Made by a program: the position numbers and the translations under genes. The notes beneath the pieces were generated by a model. That model was given only the letters and a program-made list of their open reading frames with translations. It had not been told where the DNA came from and did not search any database. From Acidobacteriota bacterium (GTDB lineage Bacteria; Acidobacteriota; Vicinamibacteria; Vicinamibacterales; UBA2999), in the NCBI GenBank assembly GCA_030697165.1, contig JAUYQQ010000015.1, forward strand, positions 124,001 through 188,000: a stretch of DNA of 64,000 bases, written 5' to 3'. Of the stretch, positions 6,032-60,034 are shown piece after piece (the first letter of the stretch is position 1; each line of letters starts with the position of its first letter).

Positions 6032-7420
6032 TCACCGCGCACCCCGCCGCAGCAGGACGGTCTTGACCGTTTCCAGCGCAATCACGAGGTCGAACCGCAT
6101 CGACAGGTTCTTGACGTAGTAGAGGTCGTACTGCATCTTCTCGATCGCGTCTTCGACGCTGGCGCCGTAGCTGTAGCGCACCTGCGCCCAGCCGGTCAGT
6201 CCCGGCTTGACGACGTGGCGCTGGCCGTAGAACGGAATCTGCTCGGTGAGCTGCGCCACGAACGACGGCCGCTCGGGTCGCGGACCGATCAGGCTCATCT
6301 CGCCGCACAGCACATTCCACAACTGCGGGATCTCATCGAGCCGCGTCTTGCGCATGAACCGGCCGACCGACGTGACGCGGGGGTCGTTGGCACCGCTCCA
6401 GATCGGCCCGGTCCGGGCTTCGGCATCGGTCCGCATGGTGCGGAACTTGTGGATGGTGAACCCCTGGCCGTTGAGGCCGACCCGCTCCTGGTGGTACAGG
6501 ATCGGGTCGTTCTTCGATTCGAGCTTCACGACAATCGCCGCAATCAGCATCAACGGCGACGCCAGGATCAGGCCGGACACCGCGGCGACGATGTCGAAGG
6601 CGCGCTTGGCCGCCAGCAGCGTGCGCGTCTTGCGGAACCCGGCCGAGAAGATCAGCCAGCTCGGGCGCAGGTTCTCGAGGGCAATCTTGCCGGTGTACTC
6701 CTCGTAAACCGAGGCGAGGTGATCGAACGCCACGCCGCTGCGCAGGCGCACGTCGAGCAGCTGGCCCATGGGCAGCTTGCCGCGTTCGTCCGACAGGCTG
6801 ACGACCACCCGGTCCACCCGCAAGCTGGCGGTGAGAGCGGGAATGTCGTCGATCGTTCCCACCACGCCGGGATTGATCACCGGTGCGCCCACCCGGGCCG
6901 GATCGGGATCGACAAAGCCGACGATATCAACGCCGAATTCGTGGCGTCGCTCGAACAACTCGCGCGCCAGCGTGACCGCGGCCGGGCTGGTGCCCACAAG
7001 CAACAGCCGCTCGCGCGGGGCCAGGTGGCTGGTCACCCACTCGAAGGCCGATCGCCAGGCAATGACCAGCAGCAGGGCGAGCGCGGCGAACAGCAGAAAC
7101 ATGCCCTGTTCGACCACCAGCAGCGGGAACAGCCAGTAAGTGATGCCCAGGATTAGCGAGGTCGCGCCAATGGCCCGCACGATGCGCACCGCCAGATCGC
7201 GGACGCTCGTGATGGTGCGCAGGTCGTAGAGATCGACGTAGTGCAGCGACACCTGGCACACCAGCACCACCAGCATCACCCGTAACACCGCCGTGTTGTC
7301 GGTGAGCAACTGCCAGGCGTACGGGCCCGCCACCACGAAGCTGCTGATAATCACCGCAGCAATCAGCAGCAGGGCTTCGCCGCTGACCAGGACCACCGAT
7401 CGCCAGGCTCTACTGAACAT
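6032..7420 (-). CDS. Polyprenyl-phosphate sugar-1-phosphate transferase (XrtA-type, WbaP/WcaJ family)
   Basis: The 462-residue protein starts the EPS repeat unit by putting a sugar-1-phosphate on undecaprenyl phosphate. The N-terminal half has four or five membrane helices (within residues 5-130) and a Rossmann-like CoA-binding-3 region (about 135-250, GTSPAAVTLARELFERRHEFG). The C-terminal catalytic module carries KRAFDIVAA, RVGLNGQGFTIHKFRTM, TRLDEIPQLWNVLCGEMSLIGPRP in pieces, and KPGLTGWAQV. Full length and this domain order fit the PEP-CTERM sugar transferase family. The start ATG at 7420 overlaps the end of the kinase gene upstream; an ATG at 7444 would add eight residues and is less likely. 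Confidence 0.92.
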   Translation of the reverse strand: MFSRAWRSVVLVSGEALLLIAAVIISSFVVAGPYAWQLLTDNTAVLRVMLVVLVCQVSLHYVDLYDLRTITSVRDLAVRIVRAIGATSLILGITYWLFPLLVVEQGMFLLFAALALLLVIAWRSAFEWVTSHLAPRERLLLVGTSPAAVTLARELFERRHEFGVDIVGFVDPDPARVGAPVINPGVVGTIDDIPALTASLRVDRVVVSLSDERGKLPMGQLLDVRLRSGVAFDHLASVYEEYTGKIALENLRPSWLIFSAGFRKTRTLLAAKRAFDIVAAVSGLILASPLMLIAAIVVKLESKNDPILYHQERVGLNGQGFTIHKFRTMRTDAEARTGPIWSGANDPRVTSVGRFMRKTRLDEIPQLWNVLCGEMSLIGPRPERPSFVAQLTEQIPFYGQRHVVKPGLTGWAQVRYSYGASVEDAIEKMQYDLYYVKNLSMRFDLVIALETVKTVLLRRGAR

Positions 7421-8384
7421 GGGGCACGCCCCGACCCTTGCCAAACCACCGCGACCAGCGCGGCCGCTGTTCCTGTGCCACGGCCCCGCTGCGCGCGTAG
7501 TAGCCGTACCCCGAGGGCATGCCCGACTGCTCGGCGCGGTTCAGGACCACGCCCAGAATGCGCGACGGCCCAATCGCCTGCGCTGCGCGCTGCACCATGG
7601 GGTACGGCGTGGACTGCGCGCTGACCACGAGCAGCGCCGTATCGATCATCGACGCCAGCAGGTTGGCGTCGGGCAGGATCGCGATCGGCGGCGTATCGAC
7701 CACCACCCAGTCGAACGCATCGCGCGCCTCGTCCAGCAGTTGCTTCATCGCCCCCGACACCAGCGTGCTCATGGGGTCGGCGGTCGCGCGGCCCGCCGTC
7801 AGCACCCACAGGGTGGGCGTGATCTGATGCACCGGCAGCTGGCCACCGCCCGGGCTGTTCAGGCTGTCGGTCAGTCCCGGGCCATCGGGCAGGCCGAACA
7901 GATCCTTGATCCGCGGGCGCCGCAGGTCGGCGTCCACCAACAGCACCCGCCGCTGGTACGACTCGCTGAGGGTGAGGGCCAGGTTGGTGGCGGTCAGCGT
8001 CTTGCCTTCGGAGGGCAAGGCGCTCGTCACCATCACGCTGCGGTAACCCGACGCGCTTTGGGCGTGATGCAGCACCGCCGCCAGGTGGCGATACTGCTCC
8101 ACCAGCGCCGACTCGGCATCGCCAATGACCAGCCGGCTGCGCTCAGCGGGATCAAATCGCGAGGCCAGCGTGGCCGGCGAGGGTGCCGCCGCGATCGGCG
8201 TGTCAATAACCGGTGCCACGAGGGGGGCGATCACCGGAGCGATGAAAGGGATCGCCGCCGGCACGTCGGCCACCCGCTCGTCGAGCGGGAACTGCCACGC
8301 GGGCGCCGGTGCATCGTCTCGAAACATCACGCTGTCGGCCGACGTGTCGGCGGCGCGCTTGAGGGCTTCACTGAGTCGTGTCAT
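7410..8384 (-). CDS. Tyrosine autokinase of the EPS export machinery (CpsD/BY-kinase type)
   Basis: This 324-residue cytosolic BY-kinase has a low-complexity N-terminal third (Ala/Pro-rich) and a P-loop kinase domain: Walker A SALPSEGKT at about 121-129, Walker A' LLVDADLRRP, and Walker B VVVDTPP. It lacks membrane helices, so it must work with the separate GumC/Wzz-like membrane protein (9334-10887), the usual split arrangement. The tail is Tyr-containing (GYGYYARSG) but lacks the long Tyr cluster of enterobacterial Wzc. ATG at 8384 is 11 bases after the ATPase stop. The pair is expected to control chain length and polymer export by cyclic phosphorylation. Confidence 0.92.
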   Translation of the reverse strand: MTRLSEALKRAADTSADSVMFRDDAPAPAWQFPLDERVADVPAAIPFIAPVIAPLVAPVIDTPIAAAPSPATLASRFDPAERSRLVIGDAESALVEQYRHLAAVLHHAQSASGYRSVMVTSALPSEGKTLTATNLALTLSESYQRRVLLVDADLRRPRIKDLFGLPDGPGLTDSLNSPGGGQLPVHQITPTLWVLTAGRATADPMSTLVSGAMKQLLDEARDAFDWVVVDTPPIAILPDANLLASMIDTALLVVSAQSTPYPMVQRAAQAIGPSRILGVVLNRAEQSGMPSGYGYYARSGAVAQEQRPRWSRWFGKGRGVPHVQ

Positions 8385-8395
8385 GGTCGGCAGCC

Positions 8396-9331
8396 TTAGA
8401 AAAACGAGAAACGGCGGGGGCGCGTAACGCCCGCAAACATCGGGGCCCGCGCGGGCGCGGGCATGGGCATGGGCACGGGTTCGCGCATGAACTCGTCGGC
8501 CGGGACCGCCGGCGTGTCGGGTGCGCCGAACGACAGCGAGCGGCACACCTCGAAGATCGTCCCGGCGCCGACGGGCTTCTGGTCCGCGGCAAACCCGTTC
8601 ACAAGGGCGTTGTCGCAGATCACGCTGATGATCCGAGGGATGCCCTTCGACCGCTCGTGAATGGCCACCACGGCATCGCGCGAGAACAACCGGGGGGCCT
8701 CGCCCCCTGCGGTCTTGATGCGGCCGGCGACATAAGCCGCCGTGTCCTTGAGGCTGAGCGGCGTCAGCTCGCAGCGCAGCACGACGCGCTGTTTCAACTG
8801 CCGCAGCTGCGGCTCGTCGAGCCGGCCGGCCAGTTCGGGCTGCCCGACCAGCGCCACCGCCAGCGATCGACCCGAAGCGGCCTCGGCATTGGTCAGCAGC
8901 CGGATCTCTTCCAGCAGCTCGTAGGGCACACTCTGGGCTTCGTCCACGACCAGCGCCAGCACGTGCCGATCGGCGGCCTTGCTGGTCAGCGCCAGTTCGA
9001 GTTCGCGCAGAAACTGCACTTTCGAACGCCCGGCTTCGGCGCTGAAGCCGAAGCCGTCGGCGAGGTACTCGAAGAACTCATCCCGCGTCAGCGTGGGATT
9101 GGACAGGTGCACGATCGTGGCGGTGCCGGCCGCGGCTTGCAGCGCTGCCCGCACCAGCGTGGTCTTGCCGGTGCCGGCCTCGCCCACCAGCATGGTGATG
9201 CCGGGACGGCCGCTGAGGCCGTACTGCAAATGTACCAGCGCTTCCTTGTGCTGGGGCGTAAAGCACAAGAACCGGGGATTGGGCGACAGGTCGAAGGGCC
9301 GCTCGTGCAGCCCGTAATACCGTTCATACAT
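8396..9331 (-). CDS. ExeA/GspA-like AAA ATPase of XrtA EPS loci
   Basis: The 311-residue protein starts MYERYYGLHERPFDLSPNP, the signature opening of the ExeA-like ATPases found in exosortase clusters. Walker A GEAGTGKT lies at residues 50-57, and Walker B ALVVDEAQ ends at 133. It lacks the peptidoglycan-binding C-terminal domain of true GspA, so it is a soluble ATPase of about 310 residues. Its biochemical role in EPS assembly is not known. It follows the chain-length gene with only a two-base gap (stop at 9334-9336, ATG at 9331), which indicates a single transcript. Confidence 0.9.
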   Translation of the reverse strand: MYERYYGLHERPFDLSPNPRFLCFTPQHKEALVHLQYGLSGRPGITMLVGEAGTGKTTLVRAALQAAAGTATIVHLSNPTLTRDEFFEYLADGFGFSAEAGRSKVQFLRELELALTSKAADRHVLALVVDEAQSVPYELLEEIRLLTNAEAASGRSLAVALVGQPELAGRLDEPQLRQLKQRVVLRCELTPLSLKDTAAYVAGRIKTAGGEAPRLFSRDAVVAIHERSKGIPRIISVICDNALVNGFAADQKPVGAGTIFEVCRSLSFGAPDTPAVPADEFMREPVPMPMPAPARAPMFAGVTRPRRFSFF

Positions 9332-9333
9332 GA

Positions 9334-10887
9334 CTATCGCAACAGCCTCCACGCCACGGCGGCGCACACGGTGAGCACGGTGACGGCGCCCAGGCCCATG
9401 GCCAGCTGCCGGCGCAAGCGACGGCCACCGGCCACCGCATCGCGCATATACGGCACGGTCGCCAGCACCATCAGGTTCAGCGCCGCCTTGACGTCGGCTT
9501 CCGACCGCAGCGCGCGGTCGAAGTATTCGGCGGTGGCAGCGGCGGCGACGCCCATGCCGAGCGCCGCGAACAACACGATCAGGTACAGGCGCGGCCGGTC
9601 GGGGCTGGCCGGGCGCTCGGGCATGCGCGCCGGGTCGAGAATCTTGAACTGCTCGCCAATCTGCCGCCGCTCGAGGTTGGCGGAGATCTGCGACTCCTCC
9701 TTCTTCTGCAGCAGGGTGCGATACGACTGCTGCAACGTCTCGTAATCGCGGGTGATGCCGGCCAGCTCGGCCTCGCGCGCCGGCGCCGCTTCGATGCGGG
9801 CCTGGTAACTGGCGAGCGCGCCGCGCAGCCGGCTTTCTTCGGCGATCTTCGCGTCGAGCTGGCGATCGAGGTTGTCGAGCTCCGCCTTGGCATTGGTCAG
9901 CCGCTTGCGGCGCTCGAAGTCCATGGCTACCGCTGGCCGCGGCTTGCTCGTCAGCGTGCCTTCCAGGGCCTGTGCTTCGACGCGCTTGCGCAACTCGTCA
10001 ACGTTGCGCCGCAGCCGCTTGACGTCGGGATGCTCGGGCTTGAGCTTCAGCTCCACCGCCAGCAGGGCCTGCTCCGACGTGCGTAGTTCGTCGGCCAGCG
10101 TCTTGGCCATCTCGCTCGGCACCGCGGCACCGGCGGCCGGCGTGTCGGGCGCCTCGACGATATCGGCGACCGAGCGTTCGAGCAGCAGGCGCCGTTCGCG
10201 ATCGCGATTGAGCGATTCGCCAATCGTCTGCAGCGCCATCTCGGCGTTGTGCAGCCCCTGCAGGTTGGCCGCCATCTGCGACGGCAGCTCGCCGTTGTGC
10301 AGGGCCTGGTACTCCTCGAGCTTCTTCTCGTTCAGCACCAGTTGCCGGCGCGCCTCGTCCAGCTGGGTCGCCAGGAACTGGTTGGTGCCCTCGGCCAGCA
10401 CCTCGCGGTCGCGCAGGCTCTCGTCGATGAACAGCGACGCCAGCCGCTCGGTCACCCGCATCGCCGTGCGCGGGTCGTCGGCGTTGTAGCTCACGCGGAA
10501 GGCATCGCCCTTGACGATGTCGATGCCGATGTCCTTGGTGCGCATGCGCTCGACGATGTCCTCCATCAACTGCTTTTCCGCCCGTTCCTTCTGGTAGAGA
10601 TTGAAGTCCTGGACGATCTGCTCGAGCCGCGTCCGGCTCATGATCTGCTGGCTGATGGTCTGCAGCCGGTCCTCGATGCGCGCCGTCACGGTCGACCGCA
10701 CGTAGCTCTCGGGCACGCGCTGCGGCACCACGAGGATCAGCGTCTCGGAGCGATAGCTGTTGGGCCACTGGTGCACGATCGCCGCGCCGGCGCCGGCAAT
10801 CAGCAGGGCCGGCAGGACGATCAGCCACTTGCGCCGCCGCGCAATCTGCACGAGCGTGTCGAATGAGTACTGCTTACCGGGGATCAC
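9334..10887 (-). CDS. GumC/Wzz-type polysaccharide chain-length determinant
   Basis: This 517-residue inner-membrane protein has a Wzz domain: membrane helix 1 just after KYSFDTL-like N-terminal residues (about 18-38), a long periplasmic coiled-coil region (about 150-430) rich in Glu, Arg and Leu, the Pro-rich PERPASPDRPR motif, and a second helix near 460. A third hydrophobic segment ends the protein, which is unusual for Wzz. The GTG at 10887 (protein begins VIPGKQYSFDTLVQ) was chosen because GAGAGG lies just upstream; the open frame extends further but that part is Cys/Arg-rich and unlike the family. It overlaps the outer-membrane protein gene by 14 bases and should pair with the kinase at 7410-8384. 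Confidence 0.88.
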   Translation of the reverse strand: MIPGKQYSFDTLVQIARRRKWLIVLPALLIAGAGAAIVHQWPNSYRSETLILVVPQRVPESYVRSTVTARIEDRLQTISQQIMSRTRLEQIVQDFNLYQKERAEKQLMEDIVERMRTKDIGIDIVKGDAFRVSYNADDPRTAMRVTERLASLFIDESLRDREVLAEGTNQFLATQLDEARRQLVLNEKKLEEYQALHNGELPSQMAANLQGLHNAEMALQTIGESLNRDRERRLLLERSVADIVEAPDTPAAGAAVPSEMAKTLADELRTSEQALLAVELKLKPEHPDVKRLRRNVDELRKRVEAQALEGTLTSKPRPAVAMDFERRKRLTNAKAELDNLDRQLDAKIAEESRLRGALASYQARIEAAPAREAELAGITRDYETLQQSYRTLLQKKEESQISANLERRQIGEQFKILDPARMPERPASPDRPRLYLIVLFAALGMGVAAAATAEYFDRALRSEADVKAALNLMVLATVPYMRDAVAGGRRLRRQLAMGLGAVTVLTVCAAVAWRLLR

Positions 10888-52787: not shown

Positions 52788-52875
52788 GGTAGCCAGATGC
52801 CAGTAACCAGATGCCAGAAGAGTGCTTGTCTTTCTGGCTTCTGGCTACTGGCTACTGGCTACTGGCTACTGGCTA
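52788..52875. repeat. Inverted arrays of a 7-bp CTGGCTA repeat
   Basis: The right arm holds six tandem CTGGCTA-type units (52834-52875) and the left arm (52788-52820) inverted CCAGATGCCAGTAACCAG units. The last repeat supplies the TAG stop of the gene at 52873-53886 on the minus strand. Confidence 0.88.
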
Positions 52876-53886
52876 CTTCACATTGACGACGACGTGAGCG
52901 GTGGTCCAGCAGCATTGGTCGCCGCCGCCGCCATCGCCGGAACTGTCGTTGACCTGCGCGCGCAGCCAGTAGGTGCCCGGCGTGCTGAACGTGGCCGTGG
53001 TCTTCGCCTCGACCCACTTCTTCGCATCGCCGCCGTTCTCGAGGGCCAGCACCTCGTCGGCGATCGTCACCTCACCAGGGCCACGGTACTTCTTCCACAA
53101 CACGCGGAAGTCGCCGCGGCGTTGCACCGCCGTGGCGGCAGCCGCCGCGGGAGCCGCCGCGCCGCCGCCGATGATCCGGCCGCCGACGATCGCGGGCATG
53201 GGTTCGGTGGCGGTGGGCGGACGCACCGGCTTTCGGGTCGCGGCGGCCGCCGGCGGCGCCGACTCGAACACGATGGTCGGCGGTTGATCGGCGGCCCACG
53301 CCGTGAGCGTCACCGGCTGGCCGACCGTGCCCGACAGGGTCTGGACGAAGCGCTCGCGCGGCGGACCGGTGTATTCGGGTCCCGCCTCCGCGAACTTGAT
53401 CCGCGGTGGTTCGTTGCCGTTGGCGGTGTTCTTGTAGAAATCGATCCAGTACGGCGGGTTGGCCCAGAACGACACCGTCGTGGTGTGACCGTTGGCGACC
53501 AGCGTCCACGTGAGGCGCTTGGTGCCGAAGTCTTTCGGGATCGTAATGGCAAACACGCCGTGCTGACGCCCGGGGTGAAAGTGCGTGGGCTGGCCGAAGT
53601 CCGGGCCGCCGGGCTCAATCCGGTTGTTCGGACCAACCGGAATGTCGAGCGACTGCGCGCGGTTGCGATTGAAGTAGCCGAGCAGCAGGACCTGCGAGCC
53701 GTCCTTGAGGGGACCAAAGCCTTCGAAGGCCGGGTAGATCGCTTCGTCTGAGGCGCCGAGCGGCTCCACCAGCACCCCCTGCGACTGCGTCCGGGGTGGC
53801 GCGACCTGCGCCGAGGTGCCGGCGCCGGTCCCGCTGATGACGAGAGCGGCCGCGGCGGCCGCGGTCGCGAACGTGTGTGCGCGCAT
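52873..53886 (-). CDS. Secreted hypothetical protein, partner of the cytochrome/monooxygenase gene
   Basis: This 337-residue precursor has a signal peptide (cleavage near GTSA) and two beta-sandwich-like regions (about 40-170 and 260-337) with an Ala-rich linker. The C-terminal strand pair carries a Gly-rich turn and two adjacent Cys (GDQCCWTTAHVVV). HFHPGRQHGVFAI near residue 95 could bind metal. It starts six bases after the stop of the cytochrome/monooxygenase gene, so the two are almost surely one operon. I do not recognise a family; a redox or substrate-binding partner is inference. Confidence 0.72.
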   Translation of the reverse strand: MRAHTFATAAAAAALVISGTGAGTSAQVAPPRTQSQGVLVEPLGASDEAIYPAFEGFGPLKDGSQVLLLGYFNRNRAQSLDIPVGPNNRIEPGGPDFGQPTHFHPGRQHGVFAITIPKDFGTKRLTWTLVANGHTTTVSFWANPPYWIDFYKNTANGNEPPRIKFAEAGPEYTGPPRERFVQTLSGTVGQPVTLTAWAADQPPTIVFESAPPAAAATRKPVRPPTATEPMPAIVGGRIIGGGAAAPAAAAATAVQRRGDFRVLWKKYRGPGEVTIADEVLALENGGDAKKWVEAKTTATFSTPGTYWLRAQVNDSSGDGGGGDQCCWTTAHVVVNVK

Positions 53887-53892
53887 CGGCAC

Positions 53893-55272
53893 CTACTGCT
53901 GCTGCCGCGCGGCTGTGGTCAGGCCGAGCTGCTGGCTGCGAGTGGCGATTTCGGCGCGGTAGTCGGTGTCCGACAGATAGGTGACGTTGACCCAGGCATG
54001 CGCCATCTCGTCCACGGTGCGGTCGCCGTAGCCCACCCAGACATTCGGATCGGGGTTGGCCTTGTTGGCCGCGGTGTTGTCGTGCCAGCCGGTCACCTTG
54101 ATCAGCGTGCCCTTGGGCAGCAGCGGCGCGGCGGTCTCGGCATAGACATAGGTGTTGTGCCAGTTGAAGTTGAAGTCGGCGACGTGACTGAGCACCTGGA
54201 TCTGTCCGTTGGGCAGGATCGCTTCCATCGACATGGCCTTGCCGCGCAAGTGCATGTGCGGCTGGAAGCTCTCGACGCGGCCGTTCTCGCGCATCAGGAA
54301 GTAGCCGACGGTGGCCTTGACGCTGTTGGGCGGAATGTCGACGGCCGAGCCCAGCCCGGCGCTGCCGCCGGCGTTGGTGCCGCCCATCAGGTGCAGCACC
54401 TGGCGATACTTCGGCTCCTGGCCCTTCGGGTAGAAGTAGATGCCCAGTTCGACGTGATCGGTGATGTCCTCACCGCCGTTCGAGTAGTGCACGTCCCAGA
54501 CGATCCGCGAGCCGGGCAGCATCAGCTTGCCGGCGCCGGGGCGCATCATCTCGCCCTGCTTGCCGACGGCCCACTCCATGAAGGTGCCGGGCAGCGGGTT
54601 GCCGTTGGCGTCGAGGGGGTTGGCGGCGAGCTCGTCGGTCTCCACCTGCTGCAGGCGCGCGATCGCATGGTGCGTAATCTTGCGGCCCTTGACCGAGCCC
54701 GGGCGCAGTTCGATGGCGCGCACCCAGCGCGGCTCGGTCAGGCCGGTTTCGACCACCGGCTTCCACCAGGCATCATTGGCGCCGGCCTTCTGGGTCCACG
54801 GCAGCGACTTGATAATCAGGTCGGGCTCGGCCTGGCCGAAGTGGCTGGCGTAGTTCCAGCCCTGTTCGCTCGGCCACTTGACCGGCGGCGGCAGGTCCTT
54901 CGGGTCGCCCTTTGGCGCGCCGGCGTCCACCCACTTCGCGATGGTCTCAATCTCCTTGTCGGAGAGCGAGCGGTCGTTCTGGAATTCCTGGATGCCGGTG
55001 GTCTTGTCGATGTGCCACGGCGGCATCTGCCGCACCTGCACGCGGTTCTTGATCGAGCGTGCCCACGGCCGCGATTCCTCGTAGGTGACGAGCGACATCG
55101 GCGCGATCGAATCGGGCCGATGACACGCTTCACACTTGTTCTGGAAGATCGGGGCGATGTCTTTGGTGAAGGTTGGCCCGGCGGCCGCCTGGGCAGCGGC
55201 AGGGACCGGCGTGGCCAGACCGAGGGCGGCCACCGCCGCGAGGACTCCGAAGGGCTTCAACAGACCGCTCAT
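53893..55272 (-). CDS. Secreted cytochrome c / type II copper monooxygenase-like fusion protein
   Basis: The 459-residue precursor has a signal peptide (cleavage after PAAAQA) and a cytochrome c domain with heme motif CEACH (Cys 47, Cys 50, His 51) and a likely axial Met near 83 (RQMPPWH). A PHM/DBH-like module follows. Its copper ligands line up as His 201-His 202 (ITHHAIA), His 262 (DVHYSNG), His 339 and His 341 (PHMHLRG), and Met 423 (TVDEMA). Such enzymes hydroxylate C-H bonds with two coppers and ascorbate or another reductant; a heme c in the same chain could supply electrons. AAGGAG precedes the start. The reaction is not known. Confidence 0.8.
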   Translation of the reverse strand: MSGLLKPFGVLAAVAALGLATPVPAAAQAAAGPTFTKDIAPIFQNKCEACHRPDSIAPMSLVTYEESRPWARSIKNRVQVRQMPPWHIDKTTGIQEFQNDRSLSDKEIETIAKWVDAGAPKGDPKDLPPPVKWPSEQGWNYASHFGQAEPDLIIKSLPWTQKAGANDAWWKPVVETGLTEPRWVRAIELRPGSVKGRKITHHAIARLQQVETDELAANPLDANGNPLPGTFMEWAVGKQGEMMRPGAGKLMLPGSRIVWDVHYSNGGEDITDHVELGIYFYPKGQEPKYRQVLHLMGGTNAGGSAGLGSAVDIPPNSVKATVGYFLMRENGRVESFQPHMHLRGKAMSMEAILPNGQIQVLSHVADFNFNWHNTYVYAETAAPLLPKGTLIKVTGWHDNTAANKANPDPNVWVGYGDRTVDEMAHAWVNVTYLSDTDYRAEIATRSQQLGLTTAARQQQ

Positions 55273-55368
55273 TCAGGCGCTCCTTGTGGTTCCACCGATG
55301 GGCCGGCTGGCCCGCTGGCCCTCCGGGGGCCGAACGCCGGCAATATAGCAGAAACCGCTGCTGGGGAA

Positions 55369-55689
55369 CTAGAGTCGGATTAGGCGTACGCGCAGGTACG
55401 CCACGCCCATCATCAACACCATCAGCATGCCGCCACCGGTCAGGCCGTTCTCGCAGCGGAAGCGAACGGTCTCGCCGTCGGCGGCGTCGAACTCCACCGT
55501 GTGCCCGAACAGCGTGTTGTGCGCTTTCACGCAATGGCGGCCCGGCGCCAGTTCGCGGGTGAAGGTCTTGCCGTAGCGCAGCACGCCGTCCCATTTCTCG
55601 CCGTCGACCCACAGGTAGACGGGGCGATCCTGGATGTCTTCGGGATGATTGCGGGTAATCTCCAGTTGCACGGGCGCGGCGGTCGGCAT
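55369..55689 (-). CDS. Small PEGA-like membrane protein
   Basis: The 106-residue protein starts at ATG 55689 and has a beta-rich domain (YLWVDGEKWDGVLRYG, ELAPGRHCVKAHNTL) that resembles PEGA-type domains, followed by a C-terminal hydrophobic helix (GGGMLMVLMMGVAYLRVRLI). It has no signal peptide, so the domain is probably cytosolic with a C-terminal anchor. It lies between the cytochrome/monooxygenase gene and the ApbE gene, on the strand of the former with a 96-base gap, so it may be co-transcribed with it. Function unknown. Confidence 0.65.
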   Translation of the reverse strand: MPTAAPVQLEITRNHPEDIQDRPVYLWVDGEKWDGVLRYGKTFTRELAPGRHCVKAHNTLFGHTVEFDAADGETVRFRCENGLTGGGMLMVLMMGVAYLRVRLIRL

Positions 55690-55713
55690 GGTACTGTTTC
55701 CAGCATACCGCCG

Positions 55714-56733
55714 ATGCCGCTGCTGCTCTTGGTTCTCGCCCTCGCGTGCGCGGCGTGCGCGGAGCCGCTGCCCGGGCGCCATCCCGTTGAACGGTCGCGG
55801 CTGGCCATGGGCTCGCAGTTGCGCGTGCAGGTGTGGAGCACGAGCGACGCGACTGCCGCCGCGGCCATCGACCAGGTGTTTCGCGAGTTCGACCGGCTCG
55901 AATCGCTCCTGAGCGGGTGGAATCCCGGCAGCGACGTCGTCCGCATCAACGACGCGGCCGGCGGCGAGCCGGTGGCGGTCAGCCGCGACACCATCGCGGT
56001 GCTGGAGGCGGCGGCCCAGGCCAGCGACTGGACGGGCGGCAAGTTCGACATCACCTTCGGCGCGCTCGCCGACATCTGGAAGTTCGATCACGACCAGGAC
56101 AACCGCGTGCCGGACCCACAGGCCATCGCGGCGCGGCTCCCTTTCGTTGACTATCGGCTCGTGCAGGTGGACCGGGCGGCCGGCACGGCCCGGATCACGA
56201 AGACGGGTACCCGCATTCACCTGGGCGGCATCGGCAAGGGCTATGCCGTGGACCGGGCCGCGGCCATCCTGCGCGAGCGCGGCTTCGCCGACTTTCTGAT
56301 CCAGAGTGGCGGCGACCTTTACGTGGCCGGCCGCAACGGCCCTACCGCGTGGACGTTGGGGATCGCCGATCCGCGGGGACCGGCCGGCCGGACGTTTGCC
56401 ACGGTTGACCTCGGCGACGGCACCCTCAGCACCTCGGGGGATTACGAACGGTTCTTCATCAAGGACGGCGTCCGCTATCACCACCTGATCGATCCCGATC
56501 GCGGCACCCCGGCCACCGGCGCGCGCAGCGTGACCATTGTCACCGCCAGCGCCATGCTCGCCGACGTCCTCTCGACGGGCGTGTTCATTCTCGGCCCGGC
56601 CGAGGGCATGGCACTGGTCGAACGGCTGCCCCACGTCGAAGCCGTCATCGTGACCGCCGGCAACCAGGTGCTGGTATCGAGCGGCCTCGAGGGCCGCGTG
56701 ACCCTGACCGCGCCACCCACCAGCGCGCCGTAG
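55714..56733 (+). CDS. apbE: FAD:protein FMN transferase (ApbE family), lipoprotein
   Basis: This 339-residue precursor begins at ATG 55714 with lipobox AACA (lipid at Cys 15 or so) and an ApbE domain: MGSQLRVQVW, GGKFDITFGALAD, HLGGIGKGYAVDRAA (FAD binding) and MLADVLSTGVFILG (Mg/active-site Asp). ApbE transfers FMN from FAD to Ser/Thr of target proteins outside the cytoplasm. An FMN-binding-domain protein and a NapH-like membrane protein lie 1.5-3 kb downstream, the natural targets. The start is 24 bases from a divergent gene. Confidence 0.92.
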   Translation: MPLLLLVLALACAACAEPLPGRHPVERSRLAMGSQLRVQVWSTSDATAAAAIDQVFREFDRLESLLSGWNPGSDVVRINDAAGGEPVAVSRDTIAVLEAAAQASDWTGGKFDITFGALADIWKFDHDQDNRVPDPQAIAARLPFVDYRLVQVDRAAGTARITKTGTRIHLGGIGKGYAVDRAAAILRERGFADFLIQSGGDLYVAGRNGPTAWTLGIADPRGPAGRTFATVDLGDGTLSTSGDYERFFIKDGVRYHHLIDPDRGTPATGARSVTIVTASAMLADVLSTGVFILGPAEGMALVERLPHVEAVIVTAGNQVLVSSGLEGRVTLTAPPTSAP

Positions 56734-58204: not shown

Positions 58205-59089
58205 CTATCGAACCGGCTGCAACGGGAGCATCCGGATCTTCCTCGACTGATAATCGATGATGCGCCAGTGCGGACACTTCACGGTGTCCGCATACAGGCG
58301 CTCGCAGTCGTCACAGCGCACGCACTCGGCGACGAGGATCTTCGGTCCTTCGATCGCCCCCCACTGGCAGGTCTTCTGGCACATCTTGCAGGTGTTGCAC
58401 TCGGCCCAGCGCTTGATGCGAAACACCGTCAGGTATGACATCAACCCCAGGGTGGCACCGACCGGGCACAGGAAACGGCAGTAGAGGTTGCGCACGAACA
58501 GCGTGGCCACCAGCAACAACCCCAGGCCCGTCCACATGGCGGTGGTCCCAAACAACCCGAACATCCAGAACGGCTCGACGTACTGGTAGATCAACAGGTT
58601 GTGCGTGGCCACGTAGTAGGCCAGCACGGTAACCAGCACACCGTACTTGATCAGGTTGGCGCGCTTCTCGATCGGCCGCGGCACGTCGAACCGCCACGCG
58701 TTCGGCAGGATCACGTCGAGGGTTTGCGTGAGCGCGCCGTAGGCGCAGACCCGGCCGCAATAGAGCCGGCCCCACAGGATGGTTGACACCACCGTGAACC
58801 CGAAAAACAGGTACCACGCCACGTTGTACTTCGGCACCGGCCAGTTCCAGTCCACGATGCTGAAGATGTTGGTGATGGAAATCAGGTAGCTCTTGGCGAA
58901 GCCCAGGTAGCCGATGGCGAACGCGAACGTCACCAGCTTGAGCGGCACGCTCTTGCGCGTGAAGCTGACCACGGCCAGCACCAGGAAGGCCGCCAGCAGG
59001 GCGATGTCGAGGTACTGCGGCGCGAGAATGTCGGCCCAGGTCTCGACGGCCTCATCCTCGAAGCCCCAGGGGTCGTCGGGCTGGACCAT
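58205..59089 (-). CDS. NapH/NosR-like membrane 4Fe-4S protein
   Basis: The 294-residue protein has five or six membrane helices and two CxxxC(P) membrane motifs (CGRVCAYGAL, CRFLCPVGA) typical of NapH/CcoG/NosR proteins, then two ferredoxin-like clusters at the C-terminus (CNTCKMCQKTC and CVRCDDCERLY...KCP, the last with wider spacing). It should pass electrons across the inner membrane. Its ATG at 59089 shares TAATG with the stop of the FMN-binding gene, so the pair is co-translated and likely forms one complex. Confidence 0.88.
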   Translation of the reverse strand: MVQPDDPWGFEDEAVETWADILAPQYLDIALLAAFLVLAVVSFTRKSVPLKLVTFAFAIGYLGFAKSYLISITNIFSIVDWNWPVPKYNVAWYLFFGFTVVSTILWGRLYCGRVCAYGALTQTLDVILPNAWRFDVPRPIEKRANLIKYGVLVTVLAYYVATHNLLIYQYVEPFWMFGLFGTTAMWTGLGLLLVATLFVRNLYCRFLCPVGATLGLMSYLTVFRIKRWAECNTCKMCQKTCQWGAIEGPKILVAECVRCDDCERLYADTVKCPHWRIIDYQSRKIRMLPLQPVR

Positions 59090-59634
59090 TACGGCTTGAC
59101 TTGATCAGGCGTCAGGAAGGTCTTCGCCATGATCCGCGACGATTCACGAATGGCGCGCGCGGCGCCGTTCACGGTGATGGACGCGCGCGAGATGGCCGCG
59201 ATGTCGCCGCCGACGCGAAACGGATCGCGAATGCTCTTGTTCTTGAATTGCGGGACGAAGTTCGGCAGGTCGATCGAGAAGTAGCCGTACGGCTCGGAGT
59301 TGTAGTCGAGCACCACGTTCTGGATCACGCCCTTGGTGTCCATGCCGACCAAAAAGTGAATGGGGCCGTGATACGCGCGCTCGTTGGGCACGAGGTCGGT
59401 GGTCCAGAAGATGAAGCCAATCGGCGGCGCCCCGGGGTTGGTCTTCGGATCGGCGCCGAACACCTTGTAGTGCAGCGGCGTGCCGCCCAGGGTCGAAAAG
59501 CCGCCGGCGTTCGGGAAGAGCGTCTTGAAATGCGGTTCCGGCCGGGGATTCGTGAAAATCCGTTTGGTTTGCGCCGCGAGGGTGACCAGTCCAGCCGTGC
59601 TGAGCATCAGAATGAGGACGCCGAATCGCTTCAA
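59089..59634 (-). CDS. Exported FMN-binding-domain protein
   Basis: This 181-residue precursor starts at TTG 59634 with GGAGGGG six bases upstream and a signal peptide (MKRFGVLILMLSTAGLVTLAA). The mature domain resembles the FMN-bind domain of NosR/NqrC (GMDTKGVIQNVVLDYNSEPYGY) and ends with a modified flavinylation segment, ISRASITVNGAAR, where the usual SGAT is S149-R-A-S152. ApbE at 55714 could attach FMN there, through Ser instead of Thr; this is inference. Together with the NapH-like protein it rebuilds a NosR-like module as two chains. Confidence 0.82.
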   Translation of the reverse strand: MKRFGVLILMLSTAGLVTLAAQTKRIFTNPRPEPHFKTLFPNAGGFSTLGGTPLHYKVFGADPKTNPGAPPIGFIFWTTDLVPNERAYHGPIHFLVGMDTKGVIQNVVLDYNSEPYGYFSIDLPNFVPQFKNKSIRDPFRVGGDIAAISRASITVNGAARAIRESSRIMAKTFLTPDQVKP

Positions 59635-59692
59635 AAACACCCCTCCGTGACCTTGGCCAAGCATACAAGGAAACTGGTATCGTGGAAGCGCT

Positions 59693-60034
59693 ATGAAGAC
59701 AACGCTGACCCGACGTGAAGTGATGATGACCTTGGGCGCGCTGGCCGTAGCCATGCCGGCCCGAACCAGTGCAATGCGCTCCGCCGATGAAACCCTCAAG
59801 GGCGACATGGTGTGCGCCAGGTGCTTCCTCAAGAAGCCCGACGCCAAGGAATGCCAGGACATTCTGCTGGTCCCGAACGCGACCGGCGAGCCGACCGAGT
59901 ACTACGTGACCAAGAACGACGTCGCCAAGGAATCGGGCGAGGCCTGTACCACGAAGATCCCGGCGACCATCACCGGCACGGTGTCCGAGCAAGACGGCCG
60001 CAAGTGGATCACCGCCACCAAGATCGTTAAGTAG
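59693..60034 (+). CDS. Small exported Cys-containing protein (DUF6370-like)
   Basis: The 113-residue precursor has a leader with an Arg pair and hydrophobic core (TRREVMMTLGALAVAMPA). The mature domain has GDMVCARCFLKKPDAKEC, an OB-like strand pattern and a late Cys (GEACTTKIP). The CxxC motif suggests zinc, heme-free redox or metal binding. It resembles a small family of periplasmic proteins (DUF6370-like) with unknown role. It is divergent from the FMN-binding gene across 58 bases and probably shares its regulatory region. Confidence 0.72.
   Translation: MKTTLTRREVMMTLGALAVAMPARTSAMRSADETLKGDMVCARCFLKKPDAKECQDILLVPNATGEPTEYYVTKNDVAKESGEACTTKIPATITGTVSEQDGRKWITATKIVK

Follow-up and report, generated by a model that had tools for sequence, protein, structure and literature searches.

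Can a single secreted bacterial chain hold both a two-copper oxygenase of the animal type and the heme that supplies it with electrons? The question is raised by two adjoining genes on the reverse strand of a 64,000-nucleotide stretch of an Acidobacteriota genome (assembly GCA_030697165.1, contig JAUYQQ010000015.1, positions 124,001 to 188,000), which we call the window; coordinates without a locus label refer to it. A preliminary description, made from the letters of the window, had read the first gene as encoding a secreted fusion of cytochrome c with a PHM/DBH-like copper monooxygenase and the second as encoding a secreted partner of no known family. The animal copper enzymes of this kind make peptide hormones and noradrenaline. 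In PHM and DBH, the copper called CuH takes electrons while CuM binds O2 and the substrate; each turnover needs two electrons, and ascorbate is their usual donor. We found that a heme c motif, a domain with the PHM/DBH fold and the full two-copper ligand set are united in one chain, and that a large family keeps this combination: the window enzyme is a real and functionally coherent heme-fused form of a known kind of enzyme.

Metal residues of the enzyme and their conservation

The enzyme gene and the motifs of its putative metal ligands (CEACH, HH, H262, HMH and M423) stand where the preliminary description had placed them. Their coordinates are as follows.

53893..55272, reverse strand: enzyme gene, 459 amino acids, predicted secreted cytochrome c–copper type II monooxygenase fusion (open reading frame [ORF], model and fold match)
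55280..55285, reverse strand: AAGGAG, resembling a ribosome-binding site, just 5' of the enzyme ATG (from sequence)
55189..55272, reverse strand: Sec-type signal peptide, residues ~1-28 (called by eye on the sequence; the model has low confidence at 1-29)
54922..55173, reverse strand: cytochrome c domain, residues ~34-117 (PF13442, below cut-off in the window protein)
55120..55134, reverse strand: CEACH, heme c attachment site, residues 47-51 (C47, C50 and H51 kept in 97/97)
55024..55026, reverse strand: M83 of MPPW, candidate axial heme ligand by inference (kept in 97/97)
53959..54849, reverse strand: copper domain, double jelly-roll, residues 142-438 (VIA-align against DBH 4zel and PHM 5wja)
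54667..54672, reverse strand: H201-H202, CuH ligands (96/97; the HH of the relative L157 is in register with that of rat PHM)
54487..54489, reverse strand: H262, third CuH ligand (96/97; in the VHY register of DBH and PHM through relatives)
54250..54258, reverse strand: H339-M340-H341, the two His being CuM ligands (both 96/97; in the HTH register of DBH and PHM through relatives)
54004..54006, reverse strand: M423 in DEM, CuM ligand (95/97; in the EEM register of DBH through the relative L130)

Both copper sets, HH plus H for CuH and HxH plus M for CuM, are thus complete in the window enzyme, and a CxxCH motif followed by a candidate axial methionine, the mark of c-type cytochromes, is found in it as in all 97 homologues. 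The order of CxxCH and the MPPW methionine is shared with the cytochrome c model PF13442, from which the window enzyme differs in scoring below the curated cut-off and in being fused to an oxygenase.

Conservation was computed over 97 aligned homologous ORFs, drawn from 91 sources. A scan of contigs had given 398 stretches fitting a pattern, 392 of them encoding a relative, and the best 80 were used; in the window's own genome, 17 matches to the enzyme collapsed into 12 loci. Whereas C47, C50, H51 and M83 were present in 97/97, the five copper histidines in 96/97 and M423 in 95/97, the other His columns of the alignment were less well kept, scattering up to 85/97, and the conservation of the metal residues is therefore beyond chance. 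The four best matches of the contig scan have 82-86% identity. All ten metal residues together are intact in 95 of the 97 homologues, so that orthologues lacking the ligands, which the preliminary description had named as grounds for giving up its reading, did not appear. Of the two exceptions, the second ORF of locus L053 is incomplete because the contig end cuts it. The other, the own-genome paralogue L119 (27% identity to the window enzyme over 408 aligned columns), retains CxxCH and M83 but none of the six copper ligands; such a joint loss is expected if these six residues form one functional unit.

Two ORFs with the cytochrome c motif and without copper motifs were seen at L119:7043-8209 (own genome, C10) and L136:1915-3276. 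The latter lacks HxH and DEM and adjoins a complete copy. Together they are possibly a recurring non-copper subfamily.

Fold of the copper domain

The AlphaFold model of the enzyme, built from an alignment of 56 sequences (A1), had a mean predicted local distance difference test score (pLDDT) of 80.6 and a predicted template modelling score of 0.80. Foldseek ranked PHM and DBH as its best matches (PHM 1sdw, E 1.9e-11). With VIA-align, the top 26 entries were all DBH or PHM, with Z from 20.3 to 16.4, led by DBH 4zel_A (Z 20.3; 272 residues, root-mean-square deviation [rmsd] 3.5, 13% identity) and including PHM 5wja (Z 19.5); the next fold was that of PNGase, at Z 8.9. In a published account, PNGase F and PHM have the double jelly-roll fold in common (PMC8812541). 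Judged from the model, the copper domain of the enzyme is of the DBH/PHM type, and with the ligands kept and this predicted fold, the central reading of a secreted cytochrome c joined to a PHM/DBH-type copper domain has held up.

The likeness ends outside the copper domain. The N-terminal domain of DBH is a DOMON domain. The window enzyme is bacterial and has a cytochrome c there; Pfam finds no DOMON in the window protein or in the families listed for its relatives, and heme c models appear instead. From PHM, the enzyme differs in its fused heme c, in having no lyase domain and in the residues at the peptide-holding positions. When the window protein was searched against Pfam, heme c models alone appeared, below their cut-offs, and an NCBIfam search did not recognise its copper domain. 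Weak matches to PF13442 (cytochrome c, cbb3 subunit III type) recur in 56/56 rows of A1 at E <= 0.1. Three homologues (L111, L130 and L157) exceed the copper-monooxygenase cut-offs of Pfam.

Distant relatives bridging to DBH and PHM

The model Cu2_monoox_C (PF03712) matches 58 of 396 genomes of the window's phylum, in 52 of them above its cut-off, and none of 14 controls. From 29 of the 58 positive genomes we took the best match apiece (loci L130-L158), three of the matches spanning a stop codon (L132, L154 and L156). The best PF03712 match, L130, scores 197 bits with the A1 profile and 37.7 bits with PF03712 (cut-off 23); it aligns with human DBH at E 2.2e-7, its VHY, HMH and DEM falling on the VHY, HTH and EEM of DBH, and through it these motifs align with the window family. 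A second relative, L157, exceeds the cut-offs of PF01082 and of PF03712. Its alignment with rat PHM (E 3e-7) places HH on HH, VHY on VHY and HMH on HTH in register, giving the same link to PHM.

All 29 loci match A1 and encode CxxCH just upstream of the copper domain. The two share an open frame at 28 loci; at L152 CxxCH is in another frame, and this locus was therefore rejected as a heme-free relative. The heme-copper fusion is thus the rule at every locus examined and no oddity of the window. The PF03712 proteins of the phylum and the window's subfamily, sharing the A1 match and the heme motif, form one family seen at different distances, the former exceeding the Pfam cut-off and the latter falling below it.

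Cytochrome c–copper monooxygenase fusions are a large paralogous family, wider than the single fusion first noted. At E <= 1e-20, the A1 profile matched 27 of the 149 genomes in a sample of the phylum; up to 14 matches were listed and up to 11 candidates scored per genome, and pieces of one ORF may count twice, so the matches per genome are not copy numbers. The window's own genome has 12 enzyme-family loci, 11 of them with all metal residues. Tetratricopeptide (TPR) repeats follow the copper domain in L110, from the same genome, and in L153. No plasmid homologues of the enzyme were found at E 1e-3. Our search covered the open-licence literature and found no description of such a fusion there. 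Pfam includes bacterial members of these families. The table of a 2020 review gives PHM and DBM for eukaryotes only (PMC7435645); the family described here shows that the PHM/DBH enzyme class is not confined to them.

A companion gene in the window's subfamily

The partner follows directly on the enzyme.

52873..53886, reverse strand: partner gene, predicted secreted two-domain beta-sandwich, ATG start (a GTG start would be at 53892)
53443..53757, reverse strand: N-terminal beta domain, residues ~46-150 counted from the GTG (model)
52876..53427, reverse strand: C-terminal immunoglobulin (Ig)/PKD-like domain, residues ~156-339 (model, VIA-align and weak PKD matches)
52909..52914, reverse strand: C327-C328, the only two cysteines in the chain (77/77 in the partner alignment, A2)

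The ORF list begins the partner at the GTG, 53892; from its ATG at 53886, the gene lies six bases after the enzyme stop, as first described. At the contig loci, we counted partner frames on the same strand within 400 bases of the enzyme, distances being measured between stop-to-stop frames. Such a frame was present at 76 of the 80 loci (downstream at 63, upstream at 11 and on both sides at 2), and its pairing with the enzyme is genuine here; as the 80 are the nearest of 392, the adjacency speaks for the window's subfamily. No partner was found at L060 and L097, with 123 and 235 bases left downstream, at L082, with 51 bases upstream and 6 kb downstream, or at L071, with 3.6 and 4.6 kb on its sides.

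Across the 149 genomes, the partner profile matched 12; eleven also have the enzyme family and the match in the twelfth, G041, covers 35 residues. We examined ten regions around partners, most of which had no listed enzyme nearby. An enzyme ORF stood beside the partner in L120, L122, L124, L125 (where it is cut) and L127, and in L128 a short partner lay upstream of an enzyme; contig ends were reached before any enzyme in L121, L123 and L126, and L129, from G041, had none. The own genome has six partner homologues: five follow an enzyme paralogue and share its strand, and the sixth is divergent. At the other six enzyme loci of this genome no partner was detected. Pairwise distances of enzymes and partners are correlated (r 0.80 over 81 pairs, with 0/2000 permutations as high), species history not having been removed and shared species history being a source that could account for it; the nearest neighbour was identical for both proteins in 42/81 pairs.

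In one genome (G116), an 11 kb contig (L127:1-10788) holds three enzyme-partner pairs in tandem. Downstream of the window's own pair, a short tandem repeat of the GGCTACT type (52833-52873) runs up to the stop codon of the partner, and similar text seems to occur near L117:9866.

The partner model had a mean pLDDT of 82.8. Its Foldseek matches were weak and of long rmsd (best E 4.6e-5), and a sequence comparison with solved structures gave no match. The best VIA-align match was 2yhg, at Z 10.7 over 108 residues, mostly of the C-terminal domain; what is shared with this Saccharophagus nucleoside-hydrolase-related protein is the Ig-like C-terminal domain alone, and a functional inference from it is unsafe. 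The PKD model weakly matched 28/77 partner relatives. Short partners in one family of genomes match roughly the N-terminal domain alone.

The possible metal site that the preliminary description saw in the partner did not survive comparison: H104 is kept in 65/77 relatives, H106 in 6 and H111 in 2. The partner as a second metalloenzyme was rejected on the same grounds. The CC pair, also named there, fared better in part. It is present in 77/77 sequences of A2 and in 85/99 partner frames overall, one L127 frame having CC at a different place. Among 18 distant frames, from own-genome paralogues and further genomes, 14 lack it (L110, L113 and L126 keep the motif), and the pair was rejected as essential for the partner family at large; it is a subclade feature in the sequences compared. 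C327 and C328 cannot bond another cysteine of the chain because they are its only ones, and a vicinal disulfide, free thiols or bound Cu(I) are possible states. Most simply, the partner is a subunit or a substrate or receptor adaptor of the window's subfamily, not a second metalloenzyme.

Proposed electron transfer and alternative functions

We consider it likely, from the motifs and the model, that the enzyme is a copper monooxygenase of the periplasm or cell surface that takes in electrons through a heme of its own. A periplasmic reductant, such as a cytochrome, would reduce heme c by one electron per step; the heme would hand the electrons to CuH (H201, H202 and H262), which would supply CuM (H339, H341 and M423), where O2 would be activated and a C-H bond of the substrate hydroxylated. 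With heme c as the electron entry, ascorbate would not be needed. With the metal-binding residues kept across the relatives, the built-in heme, rather than vitamin C, is the probable source of electrons for the bacterial enzyme. The replacement of ascorbate by heme, as first suggested, is thus backed by the conserved fusion, and we infer it on that basis.

The substrate may differ between paralogues. When positions are counted off from the His and Met ligands in register, the peptide-binding residues R240, N316 and Y318 of PHM correspond to Q337 (90/97), H425 (85/97) and W427 (89/97). As the positions that hold the peptide in PHM are Q, H and W here, peptide amidation is disfavoured, and peptidylglycine is not a likely substrate on sequence grounds.

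Several results weigh against a copper monooxygenase fed by its own heme and served by a partner. The AlphaFold model contains no metals. The window protein matches no copper-monooxygenase profile in Pfam, only 2 of the 56 relatives in A1 match one even at E 0.1, and a search of the PDB by sequence with the A1 profile returned neither PHM nor DBH; apart from the cytochrome part, its matches were of chance level, and L111 gave none. No electron-donor gene is conserved beside the enzyme, a flavin transferase (ApbE) being found at 4, a 4Fe-4S protein at 3 and a flavin mononucleotide (FMN)-binding protein at 3 of the 80 loci. As for the partner, 16 of the 27 enzyme-family genomes have no match to it among up to 16 candidates scored per genome, and among the 29 PF03712 loci, ~2.3-3.4 kb long with short flanks, a relative of the partner is seen at L151 alone.

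The fusion by itself leaves the direction of electron flow unfixed. Cytochrome c domains are often the electron exits of periplasmic dehydrogenases, and the copper domain could oxidise its substrate without oxygen insertion, heme c then passing the electrons to the respiratory chain. However, the ligand set is that of the O2-activating PHM and DBH, the CuM methionine included, and to our knowledge no dehydrogenase has a copper site of this type, making such a periplasmic copper dehydrogenase unlikely. We likewise find it improbable that small molecules reduce an active copper domain, or that this domain works as a peroxygenase, with the heme as a redox or oxygen sensor setting its activity: the added domains of some homologues (TPR in L110 and L153) would allow modular regulation, but none of the 97 homologues departs from the heme c motif or from M83, and the motif is kept at all 29 PF03712 loci examined. 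That the two proteins store copper or confer copper tolerance without catalysis would agree with their predicted secretion, the His/Met sites and, in the close subfamily, a CC pair as a possible Cu(I) site, but it is very unlikely given the complete catalytic ligand set in 95/97 homologues, a heme c motif in 97/97 that storage does not need and the absence of CC from most distant partners (14/18).

Returning to the heme-fed monooxygenase, we tentatively propose, stopping just short of calling it probable, that the enzyme belongs to a large and so far undescribed group of bacterial hydroxylases that do without ascorbate, the window's genome having a dozen paralogues. In this group, the fused cytochrome c would feed a PHM/DBH-type two-copper site and the beta-sandwich partner would help in substrate selection; where the pair is followed by a receptor or by a PAL-like propeller, a hydroxylase-lyase system resembling PHM plus PAL and acting on another substrate is conceivable. 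The family hints at many periplasmic hydroxylations, and with the electron donor built in, interdomain electron transfer to two coppers could be tested within a single protein.

Neighbouring genes and other features of the locus

The three flavin- and iron-sulfur-related genes of the window, which together look like an extracytoplasmic flavin electron-transfer set, lie as follows.

55501-56733: ApbE flavin transferase
58205-59089: 4Fe-4S membrane protein
59089-59862: FMN-binding protein

This nearby flavin system recurs in close orthologues alone (4, 3 and 3/80, as above) and was rejected as a conserved electron donor. No other general neighbour of the enzyme-partner pair was found across the 80 loci. 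At 11 of the 75 loci with room for it, an outer-membrane barrel protein is encoded on the strand of the pair no more than 600 bases downstream, against 1 of 65 upstream; the eleven comprise the closest own paralogue, L110 (L110:7991-10999), and ten others. Both barrel proteins that were scanned have a CarboxypepD_reg domain and one also has a TonB plug. TonB-type receptors are numerous in such genomes, and as the barrel model moreover came from these same loci, the association is a lead alone.

Relatives of PAL, NHL proteins, were found at 5/80 contig loci and in 2/10 own-genome regions, and a general PHM-PAL pairing was rejected. Their positions are as follows.

L035:3718-5007: PAL-like NHL protein
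L039, frame 7145-9430: PAL-like NHL protein
L041:8354-9592: PAL-like NHL protein
L089:11489-12889: PAL-like NHL protein
L100:1-537: PAL-like NHL protein, fragment
L114:5016-6314: PAL-like NHL protein, own genome
L117:9956-11263: PAL-like NHL protein, own genome

At L035, L039 and L041, the NHL protein is downstream of the enzyme-partner pair and on its strand. Three histidines aligning with the zinc ligands of rat PAL are kept in six of the seven proteins; the fragment at L100 does not keep them. The own genome has nine NHL matches overall.

Scans for promoters and terminators at the locus gave no signal above chance. On the forward strand, a long open frame (53752-55380) runs antisense to the enzyme, and like frames occur in 47 sources; it is probably an effect of codon bias at high guanine-cytosine content.

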